Shown: piece by piece, positions 12,104 through 22,953 of the stretch
Layout: each line of letters opens with the position of its first letter
Numbering within the stretch: position 1 is the stretch's first letter
Assembly (NCBI GenBank): GCA_902775485.1
Contig: CACYMJ010000020.1
Span: forward strand, 1-37,967
Reading direction: 5' to 3'
Source of the DNA: an uncultured Lachnospiraceae bacterium
GTDB lineage: Bacteria > Bacillota > Clostridia > Lachnospirales > Lachnospiraceae
DNA: 37,967 bases
Notes under the pieces: generated by a model
Databases searched by the model: none
The model's input: the letters and a program-made list of their open reading frames with translations, nothing else
What the model was told of the DNA's origin: nothing
Position numbers and translations under genes: made by a program

Positions 12104-12778
12104 ATGGTCATTTTGTCACCTTCCATACTTGCCGCGGATTTTACGATCCTCGGACAGCAGATGGAAAAGGCCGAAGAAGGTGGGAACGATTACTTTCATT
12201 TTGATGTCATGGACGGAATGTTCGTGCCTAATATATCATTCGGGATACCTGTCCTGGCTTCGGTAAGACGTGCCACAAAGAAGATACTTGATGTGCATCT
12301 TATGGTGCAGGCACCGGAAAGATATATCGACAAGTTCATAGATGCCGGAGCGGATATACTGACCGTGCATCAGGAGGCATGCGTACCGCTGGAGGAAACG
12401 CTCAGACACATACACGAGCGCGGAAAACGGGCAGGTATAGCGATAAAACCACATACGGACATTGCCGTGCTTGAAAAATATTTCGGTCTTGCGGACATGT
12501 TCCTGGTGATGACGGTGGAACCCGGATTCGGAGGACAGGAATACCTCGATTCCTGTACGGATAAGGTACGATCCCTCAGAGATAAGCTCACACAGCAAGG
12601 CCTTGATACCGATATTCAGGTTGACGGAGGAGTGACAAGAGATAACGTCGATACTGTCGTAAAAGCGGGTGCGAACGTTATCGTGATGGGCTCCTCGATA
12701 TTCAGGGGTGATATTACCGGGAACACAAGATACTTTGCGGATCTTTTTGCCAACTACAACAAAGGAGACAGATCATGA
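12104..12778 (+). CDS. rpe: Ribulose-phosphate 3-epimerase
   Basis: A 224-residue TIM-barrel enzyme that interconverts ribulose 5-phosphate and xylulose 5-phosphate. Motifs are complete: LSPSILAADF, HFDVMDGMFVPNISFG with metal-binding H and D, HLMV, and the phosphate loop DGGV followed by GSSIF. Length is normal. The stop overlaps the following prenyltransferase gene by four bases (ATGA). In related genomes thiamine pyrophosphokinase commonly follows rpe; here the accessory sugar cluster begins instead. Pentose phosphate made here could feed PRPP for the next enzyme, which is inference. Confidence 0.96.
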   Translation: MVILSPSILAADFTILGQQMEKAEEGGNDYFHFDVMDGMFVPNISFGIPVLASVRRATKKILDVHLMVQAPERYIDKFIDAGADILTVHQEACVPLEETLRHIHERGKRAGIAIKPHTDIAVLEKYFGLADMFLVMTVEPGFGGQEYLDSCTDKVRSLRDKLTQQGLDTDIQVDGGVTRDNVDTVVKAGANVIVMGSSIFRGDITGNTRYFADLFANYNKGDRS

Positions 12779-13701
12779 AGAATTACATCAAGATAGCGCG
12801 GCCGGACCACTGGGTGAAAAATGCGTTCATAGTACCCGGACTTGCCATAGCGGTGCTTCTGACTGATTTTACATTCACACCGGACGTTATAGTCAGGTTT
12901 ATAGTCGGTTTTTTTGCAACATGTTTTATCGCATCGGCCAATTATGTGATCAATGAATGGCTTGATGCCGAATTCGACAAGTATCATCCGACCAAGAAGT
13001 TCAGGCCGGTCGTATCGGAGAACATGAAGCTTTCGCTTGTTCTTACGGAGTATGCGATACTGATCGTTCTGGGACTCGGCCTGTCATTGTATGTCGGAAA
13101 ACCGTTCACTTACATGGAACTGTGGCTTCTGATCATGGGAGTGCTCTATAATGTCAAGCCGATAAGGACCAAGGATATTCCCTACCTTGATGTTCTTTCC
13201 GAATCCATCAATAACATGATAAGGCTGCTGCTCGGATGGTTTATCATAACCCAGGATTTTCAGCCGCCCATCAGTATACTGATAGGATACTGGTTTGCCG
13301 GCGCATTCCTGATGGCAACCAAGCGCTTCGCGGAATACAGGATGATAGGCGATCCTTCCGTGGCCGGGTTGTACAGAAAGAGCTTCGCGCATTATTCGGA
13401 AACAAGCCTTCTGGTGTCATCGTTCTTTTATGCCATGTGTGCAACGTTCTTCATCGGTGTGTTCATGATCAAATACAGGATGGAGTACATAATTGCCATG
13501 CCGTTTGTCTTCGGGCTATTCTGCTTTTACCTGTATATAGCATTTAAGCCGGACTCGGCGGTGCAAAAGCCCGAAAAACTGTACAAGGAAAAGCCGCTGC
13601 TTGCCTATATCGCGGTTCTGGTAGTGATACTGCTGGTACTTACCATAGTGGATATACCGATGCCGTCATACTGGGTAAATCCGACTTTGTTTGACATGTG
13701 A
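12775..13701 (+). CDS. UbiA-family phosphoribosyl-polyprenyl-phosphate synthase-like protein
   Basis: A 308-residue polytopic membrane protein with about eight hydrophobic helices. It opens with RPDHWVKNAF, like the actinobacterial decaprenyl-phosphate phosphoribosyltransferase Rv3806c, and its first catalytic motif NEWLDAEFDKYHPTKKFRP (N60-P78) follows the NDxxDxxxDxxHPTKxFRP pattern with the first Asp replaced by Glu. The second acidic region is TKDIPYLDVLSE. By family it should join PRPP to a polyprenyl phosphate, giving lipid-linked ribose 5-phosphate; a different prenyl acceptor is possible. A HAD phosphatase follows immediately, matching the known HAD-UbiA fusions. Four-base overlap with rpe couples it to the housekeeping operon. 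Confidence 0.8.
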   Translation: MKNYIKIARPDHWVKNAFIVPGLAIAVLLTDFTFTPDVIVRFIVGFFATCFIASANYVINEWLDAEFDKYHPTKKFRPVVSENMKLSLVLTEYAILIVLGLGLSLYVGKPFTYMELWLLIMGVLYNVKPIRTKDIPYLDVLSESINNMIRLLLGWFIITQDFQPPISILIGYWFAGAFLMATKRFAEYRMIGDPSVAGLYRKSFAHYSETSLLVSSFFYAMCATFFIGVFMIKYRMEYIIAMPFVFGLFCFYLYIAFKPDSAVQKPEKLYKEKPLLAYIAVLVVILLVLTIVDIPMPSYWVNPTLFDM

Positions 13702-14342
13702 TGAAAAAAAACATTAACGATTACAGTCTGTATGTGTTCGATCTGGACGGAACGCTGTACGACCAGCCGAAGCTGCGTCTTATCATGGCGTCCCGGCTTA
13801 TCGGCTATTATATATGCCATCCGTTTGCGATACGGGATCTGTTCATCCTGATGCATTTTCGCAGCGTGAAGGATTCATGGAAAGACGGATCCGGCGAAGA
13901 TAAGATCATTGAAAAAACTGCTGCGGATCTTAAGACGACAACCGAAAGAACTGCAAGAGTTGTCAGAAAATGGATATATGACAATCCGCTTTCGGCCCTC
14001 GAAAAAACAAGGGATGAAAAACTGATCGGACTGATCGGGAGGCTTAGGGAAAACGGAAAAAAGGTAGTGATATTGTCCGATTATCCGACCGCTGACAAAC
14101 TGAAAGCACTTTCTGTTGAGGTTGACGGACAGTACGGACCTGATGATGAAAGAATAGATGCGTTAAAACCGTCACCGAAGGGGCTTGAGGTCATTATGGA
14201 GGATACGGGATTTTCACCGTCTGACATACTCATGATCGGAGACAGACCGGAAAAGGACGGAGAGTGTGCAAAAGCGGCCGGAGTCGATCATCTGATACTC
14301 GAACGTAATGTCAGGAAGAGAAATCTGAATGAAGAAATATAA
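13701..14342 (+). CDS. HAD-family hydrolase, candidate lipid-linked phosphate phosphatase
   Basis: A 213-residue HAD phosphatase: motif I YVFDLDGTLYDQ, motif II VVILSDYP, Lys at KPSPKG, and motif IV MIGDRPEKDGECAKAAG. The ATG at 13701 overlaps the prenyltransferase stop by one base (TGATG); a GTG three bases earlier is a possible alternative. No separate ribosome binding site is visible, so translation is likely coupled. Because HAD domains are fused to UbiA domains in related proteins, the likely job is removal of the 5-phosphate from polyprenyl-phosphoryl-ribose 5-phosphate. That role is inference from context. Confidence 0.82.
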   Translation: MKKNINDYSLYVFDLDGTLYDQPKLRLIMASRLIGYYICHPFAIRDLFILMHFRSVKDSWKDGSGEDKIIEKTAADLKTTTERTARVVRKWIYDNPLSALEKTRDEKLIGLIGRLRENGKKVVILSDYPTADKLKALSVEVDGQYGPDDERIDALKPSPKGLEVIMEDTGFSPSDILMIGDRPEKDGECAKAAGVDHLILERNVRKRNLNEEI

Positions 14343-14721
14343 ATATCTTGTGATACTTCACATACTCCTGGCGGTTTATTCGCTTACGGGAATCGCGTCA
14401 AAGTTTGCGGCACAGGAAGAATTTCTGTCATTTAAGTTCATCCTGTACTATGGCCTGTCGCTTCTGGGACTGTTCATATACGCATTCGCATGGCAGCAGA
14501 TAATCAAACGCATGCCTCTTATTACCGCATATGCCAATAAAGGCGCTACGGTGATCTGGGGGATCATATGGGGATATTTTGTATTTCACGAGCCGGTCAC
14601 GGTAAAGAAGGTCATCGGAGCGGTAATAATACTGTGCGGAGTGATCCTTATCGTTACGGCGGATGCAAAGGAAGAGACGGAGAAAGAAGCCGACAATGGA
14701 AACAAAGATAAAGCTGCTTGA
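14329..14721 (+). CDS. Small EamA/SMR-like membrane protein (possible flippase subunit)
   Basis: A 130-residue protein with four hydrophobic helices (about 6-24, 36-54, 66-84, 92-110) and a charged tail. The third and fourth helices carry ANKGATVIWGIIWGYFVFHEP and KVIGAVIILCGVILIV, the pattern of half-size EamA/SMR transporters such as ArnE and ArnF, which flip undecaprenyl-phosphate sugars as a heterodimer. A second, dissimilar SMR gene lies in the same cluster at 19687. Start overlaps the HAD gene by 14 bases. Substrate is not determined by sequence. Confidence 0.72.
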   Translation: MKKYKYLVILHILLAVYSLTGIASKFAAQEEFLSFKFILYYGLSLLGLFIYAFAWQQIIKRMPLITAYANKGATVIWGIIWGYFVFHEPVTVKKVIGAVIILCGVILIVTADAKEETEKEADNGNKDKAA

Positions 14722-16303
14722 TTGTACTTTGAGGGACGGCGGTTACCTGAATGACTGGGAATTCGGTAACAGCAACATCGTCAATATTTTCGAGCGTCTT
14801 GTAAGCGCGGGGATAGACATAATCGAGACGGGATTTATCGATGAGAGACGCCCCTTCGATGAAAACAGGACCATTTTTCCCGATACCGAAAGCGTAAACA
14901 GGATATACGGGAAGCTCGACAAGGGATCATCAATGATCGTCGGGATGATCGATTACGGAACATGTTCCATCGATCACATCATGCCTGCAAAAGAGTGTTT
15001 TCTGGATGGGATCAGGGTCATATTCAAAAAGCAGAAGATGCATGAGGCCATAGATTTTTGCCGCTGCATCAAGGATAAAGGCTATAAGGTTTTTGCCCAG
15101 GCGGTATCCATAACGAGCTATAACGATGAGGAACTGAGCCGGCTCATAGATCTTGTTAACGATCTTGAACCATATGCTTTTTCGCTTGTGGATACATACG
15201 GACTGCTTCATAAGGGGCAGCTCCGCCATTATTTTGATTTTGCGTGTGCACATCTGAAGAGCACTATCGGTATCGGTTATCATGCCCATAATAATTTCCA
15301 GCTTGCATATGCCAACTGTATAGAACTGCTCGACGATCCGCCGGCGGGAAGACTGCTTATCGTAGACGGAACATTGTACGGAATGGGCAAGAGCGCCGGA
15401 AATACCCCGATAGAACTGCTTGTCATGCATATGAATTCATATCACGGAACGCTCTATCATAACAGTCAGATACTTGAAGCCATAGAAGTTACGATACTTG
15501 ATATGAACAGAAAGATCGGCTGGGGATATTCATTTAAATTCTTCCTTGCGGCCTCACACGACTGTCACCCGAACTATGTCAATTATCTTATGGATATCGG
15601 GAAACTGTCGGTAAAGTCGATCAGCGAAGTACTCGATTCCCTTGAAGGCGAGAAAAAGCTTCTGTATGACCGTGAATATATTAAGGAACTGTATTTTGAA
15701 TATCAGAAGAAACACTGCGCCGATTCCGGTTCCGTGGGAGGTCTTATAGATGATCTTTCGGGTAAGGATGTGCTTCTGATGGGACCCGGCAAAAACATAT
15801 ACGACCAGAGAAAAAGAGTTGATGATTATATATCGTCGAATAATTGCGTAACGATATCGATCAATTATATACCAAGCGGTTACGATCCGGATTATGTTTT
15901 CATGAGTAACGCAAAGCGCTATGTCCAGCTGTGTTCGGCGCTTAACGAGCAGAAGAAAAAATCGCGCCTTATAGCAACTTCAAACATAACGAGAACACTC
16001 GGCGAGTTTGATTATACACTTAATTACAGTGCGCTGCTTGATGAGGATGCGCTTATGCCGGATAATCCGCTCATCATGCTTCTGCGGCTTTTAAAGAAGG
16101 CAGGGGTCAGATCGGCCGGACTTGCCGGATTTGACGGATACAGACAGACACCGGTGTCAAACTATGTCAATCCGAATATGGAATATTCATACAGCAGCGA
16201 GGAAGCGGATAATATAAACCGTGATACGGTAAAGAGTATGCAAAAACTCGAACTTCCTTTTGAGGTTGTGTATGTAACGGAGAGTATTTATGAGAGATTA
16301 TGA
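14696..16303 (+). CDS. HMGL-type aldolase with extra C-terminal domain
   Basis: A 535-residue protein. Residues 1-280 are a DRE-TIM/HMGL barrel: LLDCTLRDGGY with D14, and metal-binding HAHNN at 196-200, as in 4-hydroxy-2-oxovalerate aldolase, so it probably cleaves or joins a 2-oxo acid and an aldehyde. Residues about 345-535 form a separate domain with DVLLMGPGKNI and NYIPSGYDPDYVFMSN, resembling the MptE/DUF115-like fold; its role is unknown. I chose ATG 14696 over an in-frame ATG at 14663 because family homology begins METKIKLLDC and the earlier start adds a basic stretch inside the upstream gene. Overlaps neighbours by 26 and 14 bases. Homologues of this type occur in surface-polysaccharide loci. 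Confidence 0.75.
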   Translation: METKIKLLDCTLRDGGYLNDWEFGNSNIVNIFERLVSAGIDIIETGFIDERRPFDENRTIFPDTESVNRIYGKLDKGSSMIVGMIDYGTCSIDHIMPAKECFLDGIRVIFKKQKMHEAIDFCRCIKDKGYKVFAQAVSITSYNDEELSRLIDLVNDLEPYAFSLVDTYGLLHKGQLRHYFDFACAHLKSTIGIGYHAHNNFQLAYANCIELLDDPPAGRLLIVDGTLYGMGKSAGNTPIELLVMHMNSYHGTLYHNSQILEAIEVTILDMNRKIGWGYSFKFFLAASHDCHPNYVNYLMDIGKLSVKSISEVLDSLEGEKKLLYDREYIKELYFEYQKKHCADSGSVGGLIDDLSGKDVLLMGPGKNIYDQRKRVDDYISSNNCVTISINYIPSGYDPDYVFMSNAKRYVQLCSALNEQKKKSRLIATSNITRTLGEFDYTLNYSALLDEDALMPDNPLIMLLRLLKKAGVRSAGLAGFDGYRQTPVSNYVNPNMEYSYSSEEADNINRDTVKSMQKLELPFEVVYVTESIYERL

Positions 16304-16943
16304 TGCGGTCATATTCGATCTGGACGGAACGCTTCTTGACACTTCTGAGGGAATATTCAGATCCGTGTCATATGTTATCGAGCATTCGGCTCTTACACCT
16401 CTGTCCGACGAGATCATGCGAACCTTTATAGGTCCGCCCATACAAAGATCGTTTGCGAGAGTATACAGCCTGTCGGATGAGGAAGCCCAAAAGGCTGCGG
16501 GGATGTTTCGCGACAGATACAAGGAGCATGATCTGCTGCTTGCAAAACCTTACGAGGGTATCATCGATACCATGAAGGAACTTCGGCAGGCAGGCATCAA
16601 AACCGCCGTCGCAACATACAAACGTCAGGACTATGCCGAGAAGCTCCTTCGTCATTTCGGTTTTGACGAAGTTGCCGAGGTTATCTGCGGGTCGGATGCC
16701 GAGGGAAAACTGACCAAAAGAGACATCATAGAAAATGCCATCAGGTATATGGGAATATCGGATAAAAAACGTGCAGTCATGGTCGGGGACAGTGACAATG
16801 ATGCACTGGGAGCAGATGAGATAGGAGTCGATTTTATCGGCGTGACTTACGGCTTCGGGTTTTTCTGCGGACAGGATGTAAACGAGTATAGAAATATCGG
16901 GGTTGCCGTCTCGCCCCGGGATCTGGTTGGGTTGATAATATGA
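16290..16943 (+). CDS. HAD-family phosphatase, phosphoglycolate-phosphatase-like
   Basis: A 217-residue HAD hydrolase with an alpha-helical cap: motif I VIFDLDGTLLDTS, motif II VATYK (Thr position), Lys in GKLTKRD, and motif IV MVGDSDNDALGADEIG. It belongs to the Gph/PpaX branch that removes phosphate from small sugar or glycol phosphates. The position between the aldolase and the ThDP enzyme, with overlaps of 14 and 4 bases, suggests that it dephosphorylates an intermediate of the sugar pathway. It is clearly different from the HAD gene at 13701. Confidence 0.82.
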   Translation: MRDYDAVIFDLDGTLLDTSEGIFRSVSYVIEHSALTPLSDEIMRTFIGPPIQRSFARVYSLSDEEAQKAAGMFRDRYKEHDLLLAKPYEGIIDTMKELRQAGIKTAVATYKRQDYAEKLLRHFGFDEVAEVICGSDAEGKLTKRDIIENAIRYMGISDKKRAVMVGDSDNDALGADEIGVDFIGVTYGFGFFCGQDVNEYRNIGVAVSPRDLVGLII

Positions 16944-18751
16944 AGATAAAGGTTTCGGAATATATAGCGGAGTTCCTTGTCAGGAATAACGTTACCGACG
17001 TGTTTATGATAACAGGCGGAGGTGCGATGCATCTTGATGATGCCATAGGGCATAAGGAAGGGATAAAATGCACCTACAATCATCATGAACAGGCATGTGC
17101 GATCGCGGCTGAGGGATATGCCAGGCTTACCGGAAAGGTTGCTCCCGTATGCGTTACAAGCGGTCCGGGCGGTACAAATGCCATTACGGGCGTGATAGGC
17201 GCATGGCAGGATTCGATCCCCATGTTTGTCCTATCCGGACAGGTAAAGAGGGAGACGACCACCGAATATTCGGAGGTACCGCTCCGACAGCTCGGAGACC
17301 AGGAATTCCAGATAACGGATTCCGTCAGTAACTGTACGAAATATGCGGTCATGGTGACTGATAAGGATTCAATAAGATATCATCTTGAAAAAGCATGGTA
17401 TCTGTGCCAAAACGGACGTCCCGGACCTGTATGGATAGATGTGCCGCTCGATATCCAGGCCGCTGTTGTGGATGAAGACGAACTTGAAGGATTTGATGCC
17501 CGGTCAGCGGAAAAAGTGACATATGATACCGCACTTACCGCGCAGATAGTCGAGAAGATAAAAAGGGCAAAACGTCCCGTGATACTTGCCGGAACGGGCA
17601 TAAATGTTGCGGGGGCGAGAGAGCAGTTCCTTGAATGTGCCAACGCTTTGTCCGTGCCTGTACTGACTGCGTGGAACGCTCATGATGTCATGCCTACGGA
17701 TCATCCGCTGTTTTGCGGAAAACCGGGAACCGTCGGACTGCGTGGAGGCAATTTCGTCGCCCAGTCGGCCGATCTGCTCCTTGTTCTCGGGTGCAGGATG
17801 AACATAAGGATCATAAGCTACAACAAGCATGCTTTTGCGCATGATGCGGAAAAGATCGTTGTGGATATAGACGAAAACGAATTGAGAAAGCCCACCGTCA
17901 AGGTCGATCTTCCGGTTCATGCAAATGTTCTTGATGTGATGGAGGACATTACCGGATACATCAGATCATCCGGAAACTATGACGGGGTTATCCATAAAGA
18001 CTGGCTCGAGCGTGCACGAAGCGTCAACCTAAGATATCCTGCCGTGCTTGACAGTTACCGCGGGACCGAAAAACTCAACCCGTATGTCTTCATGGAGGCG
18101 CTGTTCGAAACTCTTGAAGAAGGCGATGTTACCGTGACCGGTAACGGCGGAGCCTGCGTGATCGGTTTTCAGAGCGCGATAGTAAAAAAAGACCAGAGGC
18201 TGTTCACCAATTCGGGATGCGCGGCAATGGGATACGGATTCCCTGCCTCGATCGGTGCTGCCGTTGCAGTGCGCCGGCAGGATAAACGCGTGATATGCAT
18301 AGACGGTGACGGAAGTTTTATGATGAACATACAGGAACTTCAGACCGTCGTATATAATAATCTTAACATCAAGATAATCATACTTAACAACAACGGATAT
18401 CATTCGATCAGACAGACGCAGCAGAACCTGTTCTCATCAAGACCGCTGATCGGTGTATGCGACGGAAACGGACTGTCATTTCCCGATTTTGAAAAGATCG
18501 CGTATGCGTTCGATATTCCGTATCGCAGGATCGATAAGGAGGATGGCCTGAAGGAGGCGATAGCAGCTGCCCTGTCTTCGGACGGACCGATCATGATCGA
18601 GGCGGTCGTTGACGAGGATCAGAACTTTGAGCCGAAGCTCTCGTCAAAAGTGCTGCCGGACGGCACGATGGTATCCGCGGCTAACGACGATATGTTCCCG
18701 TTCCTTCCGAAGGAAGAATACGAAAGTGTCAGAGAATACTTAAGAGGATGA
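16940..18751 (+). CDS. Acetolactate-synthase-like ThDP-dependent enzyme
   Basis: A 603-residue thiamine-diphosphate enzyme with the three-domain layout of acetohydroxyacid synthase. The catalytic glutamate is E50 in HHEQACAIAAEGYAR, followed by SGPGGTNAITGV and the long flexible segment. The cofactor site GDGSFMMNIQEL through LNNNGYHSIRQTQ lies about residues 455-490. Genuine IlvB would normally be beside ilvN, ilvC or ilvD; none is here, and the neighbours are sugar and glycosyltransferase genes. It probably transfers a two-carbon unit to, or decarboxylates, a 2-oxo acid in unusual sugar synthesis. It starts with an ATGA overlap and ends three bases before the GT2 gene. Confidence 0.82.
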   Translation: MKIKVSEYIAEFLVRNNVTDVFMITGGGAMHLDDAIGHKEGIKCTYNHHEQACAIAAEGYARLTGKVAPVCVTSGPGGTNAITGVIGAWQDSIPMFVLSGQVKRETTTEYSEVPLRQLGDQEFQITDSVSNCTKYAVMVTDKDSIRYHLEKAWYLCQNGRPGPVWIDVPLDIQAAVVDEDELEGFDARSAEKVTYDTALTAQIVEKIKRAKRPVILAGTGINVAGAREQFLECANALSVPVLTAWNAHDVMPTDHPLFCGKPGTVGLRGGNFVAQSADLLLVLGCRMNIRIISYNKHAFAHDAEKIVVDIDENELRKPTVKVDLPVHANVLDVMEDITGYIRSSGNYDGVIHKDWLERARSVNLRYPAVLDSYRGTEKLNPYVFMEALFETLEEGDVTVTGNGGACVIGFQSAIVKKDQRLFTNSGCAAMGYGFPASIGAAVAVRRQDKRVICIDGDGSFMMNIQELQTVVYNNLNIKIIILNNNGYHSIRQTQQNLFSSRPLIGVCDGNGLSFPDFEKIAYAFDIPYRRIDKEDGLKEAIAAALSSDGPIMIEAVVDEDQNFEPKLSSKVLPDGTMVSAANDDMFPFLPKEEYESVREYLRG

Positions 18752-18754
18752 AAA

Positions 18755-19690
18755 ATGTCTAAGATATCGATAATAATACCCGTATATTATAATGCCGACA
18801 CACTTATGCTCCTCTACGAGGATATGAAGGAAAAAACACTTGGTGATCTCGGCGATTACGAGATCGTCATGGTGGATGACGGTTCAAAAGATGATTCGTG
18901 GACAGTCATGAATCAGATCAGGGACAGGGATGAAAACGTAAAGCTTGTCAAACTGTCCAGAAACTTCGGCGAGCATGCCGCATTGCTTGCGGGATTTGCG
19001 AACTGCAGCGGAGACTGTGCCGTTACAAAACAGGCTGATCTTCAGGAGGATTCCGAACTGATAGTCAGACTGTACGAAAAGTGGAAGGAAGGAAATAAAG
19101 TTGTACTTGCGGTAAGACAGGAGCGCGATGAGCCTGCTGTAAAAAAGTTCTTTGCGAATCTGTATTATTCGATAGTACGAAAGACCATAGATAAGAATAT
19201 GCCAAAGGGCGGATGCGACTGCTATCTTCTTGACCGGCAGGCCATAGATGTTCTGCTGAAGCTGGACGAGAAGAACTCTTCGCTGACTCTTCAGGTGCTG
19301 TGGATCGGATTCAAGTCAGATAATGTTTATTTCCACAGAAAGGACAGGGAAATAGGCGAGTCCAAGTGGACGCTCTCCAAGAAGATCAAGCTTGTGATAG
19401 ACTCAATGATGAGCTTTTCGTATTTCCCGATCAAATTCATGTCAAGCCTCGGTGTTATCATGGCGATTCTGGCATTTATCTGGATCATTGAGGTACTGAT
19501 AGAATTCTTCTGGCTCGGTGTTCCGGTACAGGGATGGTCTACGCTTATGTGCCTCGTACTTTTCTCATCCGGAATGATCTTGCTGATGCTTGGGGTTCTC
19601 GGTGAATATCTGTGGAGAACGCTTGATGCCACAAGAAACAGACCCGTATATATAGTTGATAGTATTAAAGAGGCCGGAACGAAAGAATGA
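18755..19690 (+). CDS. GT2 polyprenyl-phosphate glycosyltransferase (ArnC/DPM1/GtrB-like)
   Basis: A 311-residue family-2 glycosyltransferase. The catalytic part has ISIIIPVYYNAD, EIVMVDDGSKDDS and the DLQ motif in KQADLQED (residues 92-99; the first Asp of the more common DADLQ is Gln). The GESKWTLSKKIKL segment precedes two C-terminal membrane helices (about 228-255 and 265-287), as in proteins that load a sugar from a nucleotide donor onto undecaprenyl phosphate on the cytoplasmic face. It overlaps the SMR gene downstream by four bases, a pairing also seen in Arn and Gtr systems. Confidence 0.87.
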   Translation: MSKISIIIPVYYNADTLMLLYEDMKEKTLGDLGDYEIVMVDDGSKDDSWTVMNQIRDRDENVKLVKLSRNFGEHAALLAGFANCSGDCAVTKQADLQEDSELIVRLYEKWKEGNKVVLAVRQERDEPAVKKFFANLYYSIVRKTIDKNMPKGGCDCYLLDRQAIDVLLKLDEKNSSLTLQVLWIGFKSDNVYFHRKDREIGESKWTLSKKIKLVIDSMMSFSYFPIKFMSSLGVIMAILAFIWIIEVLIEFFWLGVPVQGWSTLMCLVLFSSGMILLMLGVLGEYLWRTLDATRNRPVYIVDSIKEAGTKE

Positions 19691-20025
19691 TGACAGCATA
19701 TATCGTTATATTTTTATTATGCTCGCTTATTTCGTCTTTTTCCCAGATACTTCTAAAGACAGCGGCCAAACAGCAGTATCCTTCATGGATCAGGGAATAC
19801 ATGAACGTAAGGGTGATCAGTGCTTATGCGATCTTTTTTGTGGCTACCCTTATCACGGTATACTGCTACAAAGTTCTGCCCCTGTCGCTTGGTGCAATGC
19901 TTGAGTCGAGCGGATATGTGTTTGTGACCGTCCTCGGGTATCTGATACTTAAGGAACGTATTTCAAAAAACAAGCTCATCGGAATGGCACTTGTCATAAT
20001 CGGTGTTATAGTGGTGGCAGTATAG
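19687..20025 (+). CDS. SMR/ArnE-like membrane protein (possible flippase subunit)
   Basis: A 112-residue protein with four hydrophobic helices. The N-terminal FLLCSLISSFSQILLKTAA and the LESSGYVFVTVLGYLILKERIS segment match half-size SMR/EamA transporters of the ArnE/ArnF kind. It lies between the GT2 that loads the lipid carrier and the GT-C that uses lipid-linked sugars outside, which fits a flippase role. It differs in sequence from the SMR protein at 14329. The ATG at 19687 overlaps the GT2 stop; a second ATG follows directly. Confidence 0.78.
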   Translation: MMTAYIVIFLLCSLISSFSQILLKTAAKQQYPSWIREYMNVRVISAYAIFFVATLITVYCYKVLPLSLGAMLESSGYVFVTVLGYLILKERISKNKLIGMALVIIGVIVVAV

Positions 20026-20030
20026 ATATT

Positions 20031-21830
20031 ATGAGATTCATCAAAAACAACCGGATCTACATCTGTTTTTTCATATGTTTTCTGTTCCTGTTATGGCGCA
20101 GCTTCAAGGGTTTTTGCTGGTCGGACGAAAGCTTTTATATTTCAACGGCAGACAGATTTTACAGAGGTGCCGTACCTCTTGTCGATGAGTGGTACAGGAC
20201 TCAGATGTCTTCGATACTCATGCTCCCGTTTTATTCTGTTTATGTTTTGTTATCGGGTGGAACGGATGGGATCGTTTTGTATTTCAGGCTGTTATATCTG
20301 ATACTTACCGTGATCATCGCCGTGGTGTATTTTCGCGTATTGAGAAAAGATTATCCTGACACGGTATCTGCCGTTCCCGCATTGTTTGTTATGTGTTATG
20401 CGCATCTTAACAATGCGACCTTTTCGTATTATATGCTCTCTAATCTTCTGCTCATACTCGGTCTTATACTGATATATGACTACAGGAACACCTGCAGGAA
20501 GAGTGAACTTGTATTTGCGGGAGTTGTGATCGCACTTGCGGTATTCTGCATGCCGCTTATGGCGGTGGGATATATCGCCGTAATGGCAGCGGTATTTATC
20601 GTGCTGACGGTTAACCGTATTTTTGATCTTCCGGATAATGTAAAAAAAGCCATAGATAATATCAGACTGGGAGATATCGCGCTTTATACCGTCATCGGTG
20701 TTGCTGTGCCTGCAGTTTTATTCCTGGTTTATCTGTTTACGCATACGGATATTGATTATCTGATAAACACGCTTCCGGTCGCACTTGTCGACAATGAACA
20801 TGCCGAGTCGCTCGGATACTTTATACGCAAACCGAACAGATGCCTTGTCGAGGTATATGGGACGTATACAACATATGCTTCGTATCTTCTGATAGCGGTC
20901 TCATTTGTGTTTCAGAAGCTTCTGAAAAAAGATCCGTTTCGCACGGTGGTGGTACTTGCCGATGTTGCGGTGTTTGTAATTATGGCATCACACAGCATCG
21001 GACGCGTGGGATACATACAGGTCGCGTTTTTTATGTTCATGATCCCCGTCTTTTTTGTTTCGGAAAGGAAAAATCATTTTCTGTTTTTCCTGACAACGGT
21101 TCCGGCAGTGCTTGTCGCATTGATCTATTGTTTTGCATCAAGCGATTTTTTGTACGTTATGGCAATAGGTGCGGCTGTTGCGACAGGAGCGGGTGTTGCG
21201 GGCATATATGATCATATCGCAGGCAGCCGCGATGATCAGACGAAAAACGGCGTGCCGGCGAAGATAACGGGTATTTTACTGACCGGTGTTGTTGCATTCA
21301 GTCTTTGCATAACGTTCGTTTTGAGGATGACCAATGTGTACCGCGACGCACCGATACCCAAGCTTAACCAAAAGATAACAACCGGAGTCGCGAAGGGACT
21401 TTATACGACCGGAGAGCATCTTGAGCAGTATACGGACGTATATGACATGATCGATGAGTATTGCCAAAATACAGACGGTTATGAGGTGATTAGCGGTTCG
21501 GACAGGGGAAATGTTCTGTTTTCAAAGATCCTGCCGTGGGGATATACGGCTTCCGCACTTAACTGCGGGTATCCTACCACATGGAGGGCAACGGCATATG
21601 ATGAGGATCAGTTAAAAAGATATTACGAAGTCAATCCGGAAGCCGTTCCGGATATCATAGTAGTCCTTGACAGCAAATACGGTTCATACGATGCCGCAGG
21701 TGATGTGGAAGACGATCATGAACCGAACCTTGACGAGATGAACGATTTCTGGAAGAAGTATATAACGGACAACGGTTTTACCGAAAAAAAAGTGAAATGC
21801 GCAAAAGTATATTGTAAAATAAAGCAATAG
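20031..21830 (+). CDS. GT-C family membrane glycosyltransferase
   Basis: A 599-residue polytopic protein with about eleven hydrophobic helices in the first 430 residues and a soluble C-terminal domain of about 160. The first extracellular loop has WSDESFYISTADRFYRG (D32, E33) followed by VDEWYRTQ, the acidic early-loop motif of GT-C enzymes such as the PMT/GT39 and ArnT groups, which use lipid-phosphate sugars outside the membrane. It therefore probably transfers the sugar made by this cluster to a wall, teichoic-acid-like or exopolysaccharide acceptor. Acceptor is unknown. Five bases separate it from the SMR gene. Confidence 0.75.
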   Translation: MRFIKNNRIYICFFICFLFLLWRSFKGFCWSDESFYISTADRFYRGAVPLVDEWYRTQMSSILMLPFYSVYVLLSGGTDGIVLYFRLLYLILTVIIAVVYFRVLRKDYPDTVSAVPALFVMCYAHLNNATFSYYMLSNLLLILGLILIYDYRNTCRKSELVFAGVVIALAVFCMPLMAVGYIAVMAAVFIVLTVNRIFDLPDNVKKAIDNIRLGDIALYTVIGVAVPAVLFLVYLFTHTDIDYLINTLPVALVDNEHAESLGYFIRKPNRCLVEVYGTYTTYASYLLIAVSFVFQKLLKKDPFRTVVVLADVAVFVIMASHSIGRVGYIQVAFFMFMIPVFFVSERKNHFLFFLTTVPAVLVALIYCFASSDFLYVMAIGAAVATGAGVAGIYDHIAGSRDDQTKNGVPAKITGILLTGVVAFSLCITFVLRMTNVYRDAPIPKLNQKITTGVAKGLYTTGEHLEQYTDVYDMIDEYCQNTDGYEVISGSDRGNVLFSKILPWGYTASALNCGYPTTWRATAYDEDQLKRYYEVNPEAVPDIIVVLDSKYGSYDAAGDVEDDHEPNLDEMNDFWKKYITDNGFTEKKVKCAKVYCKIKQ

Positions 21831-21852
21831 ATAAGAACGGAAGGATCTGACA

Positions 21853-22953
21853 ATGATACCTGTAAACGAACTTGCAAGAGGGTTTAGGCTGTATCAGGAT
21901 GAATATGAGCAGAAGGCGCTTGAGGTACTTCGAAGCGGCTGGTATGTTCTGGGCAAAGAGATGACTGCATTTGAAGAAGAGTTCGCTCAAAAGCTCGGAA
22001 GCGGATGTTACTGCGCCGGAGTCGACAACGGACTTGATGCCATCTGGCTGGGACTTCAGGCTGCCCAAATAGGTGAGGGCGATGAAGTGATAGTTCAGGC
22101 AAACGGTTATATCGCCACTATGCTCGGGGTTATGAACTGCGGAGCTACACCTGTGTTTGTAGAGCCGGATGAGTATTTCCAGCTCGATGCCGCAAGGATA
22201 GAAGCTGCCGTTACGGACAGGACAAAGGCTGTGCTCGTAACACATCTGTACGGGCAGGCGACCCGTATGGATCCGATCATTAAGATATGCGAAAAACACG
22301 ATCTGCAATTGTTTGAAGACTGTGCCCAGTCTCATTTTGCCGCATACAGGGGAACGAATACCGGTCTGTTCGGAAAGGCTTCTTTTTTCTCATTTTACCC
22401 GACCAAAAATCTCGGAGGGTTCGGCGACGGAGGTGCGGTAGTATCAACCGACCCTGATCTTATCGACCGGGTTAAGATACTGAGAAATTATGGCAGTGAC
22501 AGAAGATACCATAATATTGCCGTCGGGTATAATATGCGTCTTGACGAACTTCAGGCAGGACTTTTGCGCATAAGGCTTTCACATATGGACGAACTTATCG
22601 CCAACAGACGGCATATTGCAAACAGGTATCTTAAGGAGATATACAATCCGAAGATCACGCTTCCGGCTGTGGCTGAGGGGTGTGACCATACATGGTACCA
22701 GTTCATAGTAAGGGCAGACGATCAGACAGCGTTTATGGCACATATGAAGGATAAGGATGTGGCCACGGATATATCATGGCAGGTGCCGCCGTATCTTCAG
22801 CCGTGTATGCGTGAAAAGTTCGGATTTTCGGAAGGAGATTTTCCGGTTACCGAAGATATATGTGCTCATATAGTGACGCTTCCGATGATGGAGTATATGA
22901 GCGAAGAAGAGATCGGACATGTAACAGATGCGGTAAACAGTTATGAGGGATAG
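21853..22953 (+). CDS. DegT/DnrJ/EryC1/StrS-type sugar aminotransferase
   Basis: A 366-residue PLP enzyme of the nucleotide-sugar aminotransferase family. The PLP lysine is K185 in SFYPTKNLGGFGDGG. The segment GVDNGLDAIWLGLQ with GEGDEVIVQANGYIAT is close to the FdtB/QdtB/TylB type that aminates the C3 keto group of dTDP-6-deoxy-ketohexoses. No sugar dehydratase or isomerase for its substrate lies in this window, so the keto-sugar must come from elsewhere or from the cluster's own aldolase/ThDP chemistry. It has its own GGAAGGATC site, 22 bases after the GT-C gene, and is the last gene of the cluster. Confidence 0.88.
   Translation: MIPVNELARGFRLYQDEYEQKALEVLRSGWYVLGKEMTAFEEEFAQKLGSGCYCAGVDNGLDAIWLGLQAAQIGEGDEVIVQANGYIATMLGVMNCGATPVFVEPDEYFQLDAARIEAAVTDRTKAVLVTHLYGQATRMDPIIKICEKHDLQLFEDCAQSHFAAYRGTNTGLFGKASFFSFYPTKNLGGFGDGGAVVSTDPDLIDRVKILRNYGSDRRYHNIAVGYNMRLDELQAGLLRIRLSHMDELIANRRHIANRYLKEIYNPKITLPAVAEGCDHTWYQFIVRADDQTAFMAHMKDKDVATDISWQVPPYLQPCMREKFGFSEGDFPVTEDICAHIVTLPMMEYMSEEEIGHVTDAVNSYEG

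Follow-up and report, generated by a model that had tools for sequence, protein, structure and literature searches.

A portable aldolase-HAD-ThDP gene cassette in a Lachnospiraceae operon that may make and export a carbon-branched deoxysugar

The YerE/ErwE/JanthE enzymes of the yersiniose, erwiniose and caryophyllose pathways, which depend on thiamine diphosphate (ThDP), are the closest described counterparts of the core of the gene run treated here. According to passages of PMC12247030, YerE-like enzymes branch CDP-4-keto-3,6-dideoxyglucose, and ErwE and MMAR_2332 prefer hydroxy-2-oxo acids as donors; a passage of PMC12188165 describes JanthE (PDB 8rph) as a YerE-like enzyme without identified physiological substrates, and for Pseudomonas a passage of PMC4509608 gives only ddhA-D, yerE and yerF. 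On the export side, systems that combine a flippase with enzymes of the GT-A and GT-C types have been described, and those of the GT-C type can share little sequence (passages of PMC8035078). The DNA analysed here, called the window, is a stretch of 37,967 nucleotides (contig CACYMJ010000020.1, GenBank assembly GCA_902775485.1) from an uncultured gut or rumen bacterium of the Lachnospiraceae, whose draft genome is 2.33 Mb in size and 84% complete. Between rpe and a cysE-like gene it carries ten plus-strand open reading frames (ORFs) lying end to end (12775-22953), numbered here as genes 1 to 10.

A sequence-only reading of this run had described a single lipid-linked sugar pathway of ten genes, of a kind matching no known pathway. 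The family calls were confirmed by Pfam for nine of the ten genes (UbiA, HAD, EamA/SMR-like, HMGL-like aldolase, HAD, three-domain ThDP enzyme, GT2, EamA/SMR-like and DegT), but the run consists of three gene sets with different histories (genes 1-2, genes 3-9 and gene 10) and not of one pathway. The verdict on novelty was also too strong, as the aldolase-ThDP core fits a branched-sugar pathway of the YerE/ErwE type. We suggest, with a probability of about 0.45, that the insert formed by genes 3-9 serves to make a carbon-branched deoxysugar and to export it, and that genes 1-2 and gene 10 represent separate genus-wide pathways that share the operon; the product would likely be a C-branched 3,6-dideoxyhexose. 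The part of this proposal that deals with genes 4-6 is stronger than the part that deals with genes 7-9.

The aldolase-HAD-ThDP cassette

Gene 4 (14696-16303, plus strand; the longest ORF begins at 14663) encodes a long aldolase, in which an HMGL/DmpG-type barrel (PF00682) that aligns to 3dxi and 1nvm is joined to a C-terminal domain of about 200 residues without a Pfam family. Residues R24, D25, H207 and H209 (numbering from 14663), aligned to 1nvm, were invariant in 40 aldolase sequences; an Arg-Asp pair and a His-x-His motif are what we take to be the metal/catalytic residues of HMGL/DmpG-type pyruvate aldolases. The score against the 4-hydroxy-2-oxovalerate aldolase equivalog TIGR03217 was 64 bits, below the cut-off of 286. 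The C-terminal domain, searched against Pfam in six pieces, gave no credible match, so that a suspected MptE/DUF115-like fold found no support there. The next gene, gene 5 (16290-16943, plus strand), encodes an HAD phosphatase of the phosphoglycolate phosphatase type (PF13419, 123 bits).

Gene 6 (16940-18751, plus strand) has the three TPP domains of a ThDP-dependent enzyme and is predicted to be a JanthE/YerE-like carboligase. Its nearest solved relative was JanthE with 374 bits, and the best acetolactate synthase reached 235 bits, which makes the latter identity less likely. Because 5ahk, presumably PpYerE, gave only 222 bits, the link appears to be to JanthE and not to YerE as a whole; gene 6 has the canonical GDG motif, whereas JanthE has CDG. 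The genus sample used for comparison comprised 37 genomes, of which 13, the window's own included, are carriers (full-length aldolase at an identity of at least 78% in this place) and 24 are non-carriers. In a tree of 75 ThDP enzyme rows, the 14 rows of the carriers formed one clade (support 100/100) inside a clade of 61 rows (97/97) that included 30 rows linked to Rfb genes; the nearer placement next to Rfb-linked rows was weaker (89/94 and 92/75), and six of the Rfb-linked labels (L044, L046, L047, L052, L054 and L055; L denotes a locus read, G a genome) were assigned by visual inspection of ORF starts.

Scanning named genomes with an alignment of the aldolase gave 575 confirmed loci, and the best 80, which are the most similar and not a random sample, were matched at tblastn thresholds to ThDP (59 loci), HAD (50), RfbF (37), RfbG (31), RfbH (35) and a short-chain dehydrogenase/reductase, SDR (44). 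A full-flank set was made of 51 loci of at least 19 kb, three carriers being excluded, in which 42 loci had the ThDP gene and 9 did not. The median distance to the aldolase was 154 bases for the ThDP gene and 53 bases for the HAD gene. At least one of RfbF/G/H was present at 33 of the 42 loci with ThDP and all three at 24; SDR was present at 33, and any of the four at 38. At the 9 loci without ThDP the corresponding figures were 2 for any Rfb gene and none for SDR (Fisher p 0.002 for the Rfb link, without phylogeny correction). In L054, RfbF, RfbG and RfbH each scored above the cut-off of an NCBIfam equivalog (glucose-1-phosphate cytidylyltransferase, CDP-glucose 4,6-dehydratase and RfbH, respectively), and the SDR near the cassette matched no specific family, the label 'YerF-like' coming from its position only. 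Some cassette loci belong to other families or phyla (Selenomonas, Treponema, Fibrobacter and Clostridium). Thus, the long aldolase, HAD and ThDP genes are a portable cassette, and this cassette is the core of the insert.

Variants of the aldolase arrangement were also seen. A 1066-residue ORF in which the aldolase half is fused to another part adjoins a divergent ThDP gene (L069:6466-9666), and a Gastranaerophilales genome holds a pair of long aldolase genes close together, with no ThDP match (L167:2289-6367).

Compared with the YerE/ErwE/JanthE pathways, the present genes share the JanthE-like ThDP enzyme and, in most full-flank relatives, RfbF/G/H and SDR genes near the cassette. They differ in that the ThDP enzyme has as companions an aldolase carrying an additional C-terminal domain and, in many cases, an HAD protein, and in that the cassette of the window's subclade lies away from RfbF/G/H and is joined to an export set. 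No literature stating an aldolase partner for YerE-like enzymes was found, in a search that was thin on subscription journals. A pyruvate aldol reaction followed by decarboxylating transfer would leave a CH2 beside the new branch carbinol; the caryophyllose branch, a 1,3,4,5-tetrahydroxyhexyl group according to a passage of PMC5706390, has a CH2 at position 2, as such an aldol would leave.

Three gene sets in one operon

The earlier description of ten coupled genes in a housekeeping operon holds. Upstream lies rpe (12104-12778, plus strand; TIGR01163 above cut-off), which overlaps gene 1 by 4 bases, and downstream lie the cysE-like gene (+12 bases; below the cysE cut-off) and then mnmA. With the aldolase start at 14696, the spacings from rpe to the DegT gene are -4, -4, -14, -26, -14, -4, +3, -4, +5 and +22 bases; seven of the nine joints inside the run are at most 5 bases in size or are overlaps of up to 26 bases, and the widest gap is 22. 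Values of pN/pS against three relatives ranged from 0.08 (UbiA) to 0.37 (gene 2), ratios that are rough as synonymous sites are near saturation, and on this basis the ten genes look to be under selection. Among the NCBIfam matches listed, only the generic HAD subfamily (genes 2 and 5) passed its cut-off; the ArnE, ArnC, PgfS, PseC and decaprenyl-phosphate phosphoribosyltransferase models stayed below theirs.

Gene 1 (12775-13701, plus strand; PF01040, 88 bits) encodes a UbiA-fold enzyme and probable polyprenyl-phosphate phosphoribosyltransferase. The decaprenyl-phosphate phosphoribosyltransferase 8j8j was its only PDB match, and the two aligned through the Asp-rich motif and the HPTKxFRP stretch, N(D/E)xxDxExDxxHPTKxFRP, the first Asp of the Asp-rich motif being Glu in the window. 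The assignment as a phosphoribosyl transferase, already made from the sequence, is thus supported by the alignment but not by the NCBIfam model for the decaprenyl-phosphate enzyme (NF008977), against which gene 1 scored 92.7 bits, far under the cut-off of 234. Gene 2 (13698-14342, plus strand; PF00702) encodes an HAD hydrolase, the neighbour of UbiA in non-carriers too, and is probably a phosphatase acting on the product of gene 1, so that a polyprenyl-phosphate ribose 5-phosphate synthase with its phosphatase appears to be the likeliest identity of the pair. The UbiA fold, the HPTKxFRP stretch and the neighbouring phosphatase gene are shared with the DPPR synthase (Rv3806c) branch; the differences are the low score, the HAD type of the phosphatase and the lack of a DprE1/DprE2-type gene among the ten.

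Of the 37 genus genomes, 36 had UbiA and only 13 the full-length aldolase in place, which does not support one ten-gene pathway. In all 16 non-carriers whose sequence was read around UbiA, UbiA and HAD were adjacent, and at none of these loci, some of which end at contig ends, did tblastn match genes 3-10. As rpe was present at 15 of the 16, the location after rpe, for which a functional meaning had been suggested, is ancestral for UbiA-HAD and says little about the insert. Among 38 family genomes of other genera, which were taken from those listed by name in an aldolase search and so are biased to genomes with an aldolase match, one had UbiA at 71% identity and one a distant UbiA at 27%. The 13 carriers are exactly the genomes whose UbiA (a fragment in G020) is at least 83% identical, and because of this coincidence a single gain of the insert, in the subclade that these 13 genomes form, is probable.

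Within that subclade genes 3-6 were present in 13 of 13 carriers (in L035 a contig end truncates the ThDP gene) and genes 7-8 in all 12 readable carriers; 10 of the 12 had gene 9, and 10 of the 12 had gene 10 at this position. Seven of the 12 other carriers had the complete ten in order; L032 was without gene 10 and L034 without genes 9 and 10, L035 and L036 end at contig ends, and L043 (genome G007) kept the other nine genes with a YfhO-family protein (PF09586; L043:2335-4344) where gene 9 would be. Among the best 80 named aldolase loci, UbiA occurred in two and as a fragment in L102, all three from the carrier subclade, and the named near-copies of the run (L097, L098 and L102) are Lachnospiraceae metagenome-assembled genomes, one of them from buffalo rumen. 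The ten families therefore do not travel together outside the subclade, an outcome at large scale that the sequence-only reading had itself named as refuting it; within the subclade, genes 3-6 of the insert co-occur in all 13 genomes.

Export genes and the nature of the sugar

Genes 3 (14329-14721) and 8 (19687-20025), both on the plus strand, encode SMR/EamA small membrane proteins (PF00892) that are weakly ArnE-like and are the probable two subunits of a flippase; the best NCBIfam match of gene 3 was ArnE, with 30.6 bits against a cut-off of 92. Homologues of gene 3 (41%) and gene 8 (40%) directly follow one another after the aldolase in L176. At this locus (L176:9986-12383) the aldolase gene is thus followed by two SMR genes, and UbiA, GT2 and ThDP were not matched at the thresholds used. 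Gene 7 (18755-19690, plus strand; PF00535) encodes a putative GT2 polyprenyl-phosphate sugar synthase of PgfS/ArnC-like type, with 214 bits to PgfS and 169 to ArnC, both under cut-off, PDB matches to sll0501 and ArnC, and two C-terminal hydrophobic segments.

Gene 9 (20031-21830, plus strand) encodes a polytopic membrane protein with 11 hydrophobic segments. Neither Pfam nor NCBIfam gave a match, and nothing credible was obtained for five homologues either. The hydrophobic segments, an N-terminal pair, D32-E33, that is invariant in 11 sequences, and the YfhO-family replacement in G007 suggest that it is a probable GT-C extracellular glycosyltransferase. The notion of lipid-linked sugar chemistry was supported, as were a set of GT2, flippase and GT-C-like protein and the guess of a branched or amino sugar.

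The export genes resemble CsbB-GtcA-YfhO multi-component transmembrane glycosylation in the GT2 with two C-terminal hydrophobic segments, the small membrane proteins, the polytopic transferase and the YfhO protein of G007, but the small proteins are of SMR type and not GtrA, gene 9 has no family and sugar-synthesis genes stand in the same operon. The Arn system (ArnB, ArnC, ArnE/F and ArnT) is matched by DegT, an ArnC-like GT2, two SMR proteins and a GT-C-like protein. Here, however, DegT is QdtB-like, an aldolase-HAD-ThDP cassette is added and all Arn model scores are below cut-off; Pfam and NCBIfam recognised no ArnA or ArnD among the ten genes, a search that did not extend genome-wide.

Gene 10 (21853-22953, plus strand; PF01041, 330 bits) encodes a DegT aminotransferase whose nearest solved protein is QdtB (3frk, 333 bits), which points to a QdtB-like 3-aminotransferase. 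An identity as RfbH was rejected, as the two were 35% identical over part of RfbH only and QdtB was far nearer. Homologues of this DegT (E below 1e-75) occurred in 33 of the 37 genus genomes. Outside the carriers there were 20 genomes with a match, and in 18 of them (not G023 and G026) an FdtA match shared the contig, at a distance of no more than about 0.1 kb. In the carriers the gene is inside the ten-gene operon in 10 genomes; G003 and G025 have it on a different contig, and it is present in G031 too. The aminotransferase family call for gene 10 was therefore correct, but its inclusion in the same pathway was not supported, as it is a genus-wide gene normally found beside FdtA.

FdtA lay between dgt and groEL in eight of the nine carrier FdtA loci read (not in G029), including that of the window genome (L179:3661-8387), and seven of the eight also have an adjoining gene recognised as a hexapeptide acyltransferase. 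Four carriers (G007, G018, G020 and G033) gave no FdtA match. These dgt-FdtA-groEL loci (L179, L180, L181, L183, L184, L186, L188 and L191) are a second set of sugar genes within a housekeeping neighbourhood. The label QdtC was not used for the acyltransferase, for which Pfam shows hexapeptide repeats only. Relative to the QdtA/B/C and FdtA/B/C pathway, the likeness lies in the QdtB-like gene 10 and in FdtA and the hexapeptide acyltransferase side by side in the window genome; the differences are the split over two housekeeping loci in most carriers and an acyltransferase known only as a hexapeptide-repeat protein. A match to FdtA was also seen at two aldolase-cassette loci, L126 and L135 (75% and 68% identity to the FdtA of L160).

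A proposed pathway, its rivals and its meaning

From the families, module boundaries, co-location with RfbF/G/H and distribution that were observed, we infer the reactions and the acceptor as follows. Gene 4 would join pyruvate and a phosphorylated aldehyde by condensation, and from the resulting phosphorylated 4-hydroxy-2-oxo acid gene 5 would take off the phosphate. Gene 6 would decarboxylate the acid and add the hydroxyacyl unit to the ketone of a CDP-3,6-dideoxy-4-keto-hexose supplied by RfbF, RfbG and RfbH encoded elsewhere, and an SDR, also encoded elsewhere, would reduce the new ketone. The sugar would then be loaded on polyprenyl phosphate by gene 7, flipped by genes 3 and 8 and transferred by gene 9 to a surface polymer. 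Polyprenyl-phosphate ribose (genes 1-2) and a dTDP-3-amino-3,6-dideoxyhexose (gene 10 with the FdtA near groEL) would be made by separate pathways.

The genes expected elsewhere were found in most carriers: RfbG (E below 1e-60) in 10 of the 13, RfbH (at least 71% identity) in 9 and SDR (at least 67%) in 9, with one further fragment of 67 residues. At a completeness of at least 94%, RfbG, RfbH and SDR occurred together in 5 of 5 carriers versus 3 of 11 non-carriers, and those three (G009, G011 and G016) have an aldolase cassette elsewhere. Across the genus RfbG was present in 16 of 20 genomes with a long aldolase (at least 48% identity) versus 5 of 17 without (p 0.003, for groups set by hand and genomes that are related and not independent). 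RfbH taken alone, in 9 of 13 carriers versus 10 of 24 non-carriers, gave no significant difference (Fisher p 0.17). An RfbF-SDR-RfbH run was found in G003 and G025 (stretches L095 and L096), where ThDP was not matched within the 19 kb that were read; L093 has SDR-RfbH and L094 has RfbH.

Several observations count against this proposal. RfbG, RfbH and SDR were not found in the window's own 84%-complete draft, and the 24 non-carriers hold RfbG in 11 genomes, RfbH in 10, with a fragment of it in G032, and an SDR of lower similarity in 9. Among the full-flank loci with ThDP, HAD was recognised in only 22 of 42, RfbF/G/H were absent at 9 and neither Rfb nor SDR was present at 4. Tyr28 of gene 4, a Tyr in 3dxi too, aligns with His21 of DmpG, which we assume to be the general base. 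No ThDP match was obtained in L176, from which evidence on the SMR pair was drawn, and a gene 7 homologue of at least 45% identity occurs at three non-carrier named loci, two of which (L126 and L160) hold FdtA. As to the missing genes, guaB (IMP dehydrogenase) lies 5-8 kb from RfbH in L093, L094 and L096 but gave only a 26% partial match in the window draft, so that the RfbH/guaB neighbourhood is probably missing from the assembly, a gap that shows neither absence nor presence of the genes. For the VTC-domain neighbour of RfbG in L185, the draft has only a 34% homologue.

The sugar carried by gene 7 is the weakest point, and it may be a branched or an amino sugar; the latter is suggested because L126 and L160 hold FdtA, L160 also holding DegT. 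Genes 7-10 could then be an Arn-like unit for a 3-acylamino-3,6-dideoxyhexose, with the cassette serving another sugar: FdtA, gene 10 and the hexapeptide acyltransferase would make the dTDP sugar, gene 7 would load it, the SMR pair would flip it and gene 9 would transfer it. This would accommodate the nearness of gene 10 to QdtB, the FdtA of the window genome beside an acyltransferase gene and groEL (L179), the adjacent genes FdtA-GT2(54%)-DegT(49%)-GtrA-hexapeptide acyltransferase of L160, the FdtA and GT2 (50%) of L126, and the parallel of GT2, SMR pair, GT-C-like protein and DegT with ArnC, ArnE/F, ArnT and ArnB. We nevertheless regard it as rather unlikely, as gene 10 has a genus-wide distribution and mostly adjoins FdtA, also where the UbiA locus has no match to genes 3-9; as G003 and G025 keep genes 7 and 8 with the cassette but have gene 10 on another contig; and as the gene 7 homologue of L157 (56%) stands in an Rfb-aldolase-ThDP cluster with no FdtA or DegT match.

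The contigs of G003 and G025 also speak against a convergence of all modules on one branched amino sugar, in which the ThDP enzyme would acylate an FdtA-made dTDP-3-keto-6-deoxyhexose or gene 10 would aminate the branch. The finding of FdtA but not RfbG and RfbH in the window genome, and of genes 6 and 10 in one operon in 10 carriers, would agree with such a scheme, but elsewhere the cassette is paired with RfbF/G/H, and of the 42 full-flank non-carrier loci with ThDP only 2 have FdtA and 1 a DegT of the window type, so that we think it improbable. Least credible of all is a single ten-gene pathway, in which one GT-C enzyme would use both polyprenyl-phosphate ribose and a second lipid-linked sugar. 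The operon is tightly coupled and, apart from losses of the GT-C and DegT genes and contig ends, is kept in the carriers, but UbiA-HAD stood without a match to genes 3-10 at all 16 non-carrier loci read and gene 10 has a distribution of its own.

The aldolase-HAD-ThDP cassette is the most informative part of the run, probably a donor-making extension of the YerE/ErwE pathway. The literature passages cited above do not state the origin of ErwE-type hydroxy-2-oxo acid donors, a question that a linked aldolase and phosphatase would answer. More tentatively, the cassette might be a mobile donor-maker, which joins a custom polyhydroxy 2-oxo acid built from central metabolites to a keto sugar and so gives a host-specific branched sugar; here, together with a paired-SMR flippase, it might place C-branched sugars, in an Arn-like manner, on a Gram-positive surface polymer. 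If the donors do come from the linked aldolase and phosphatase, biocatalysis would gain new tertiary-alcohol-forming enzymes with matched donor synthases, and the range of C-branched surface sugars would widen to take in many Clostridia of gut and rumen, as well as some genomes of Treponema and Fibrobacter.

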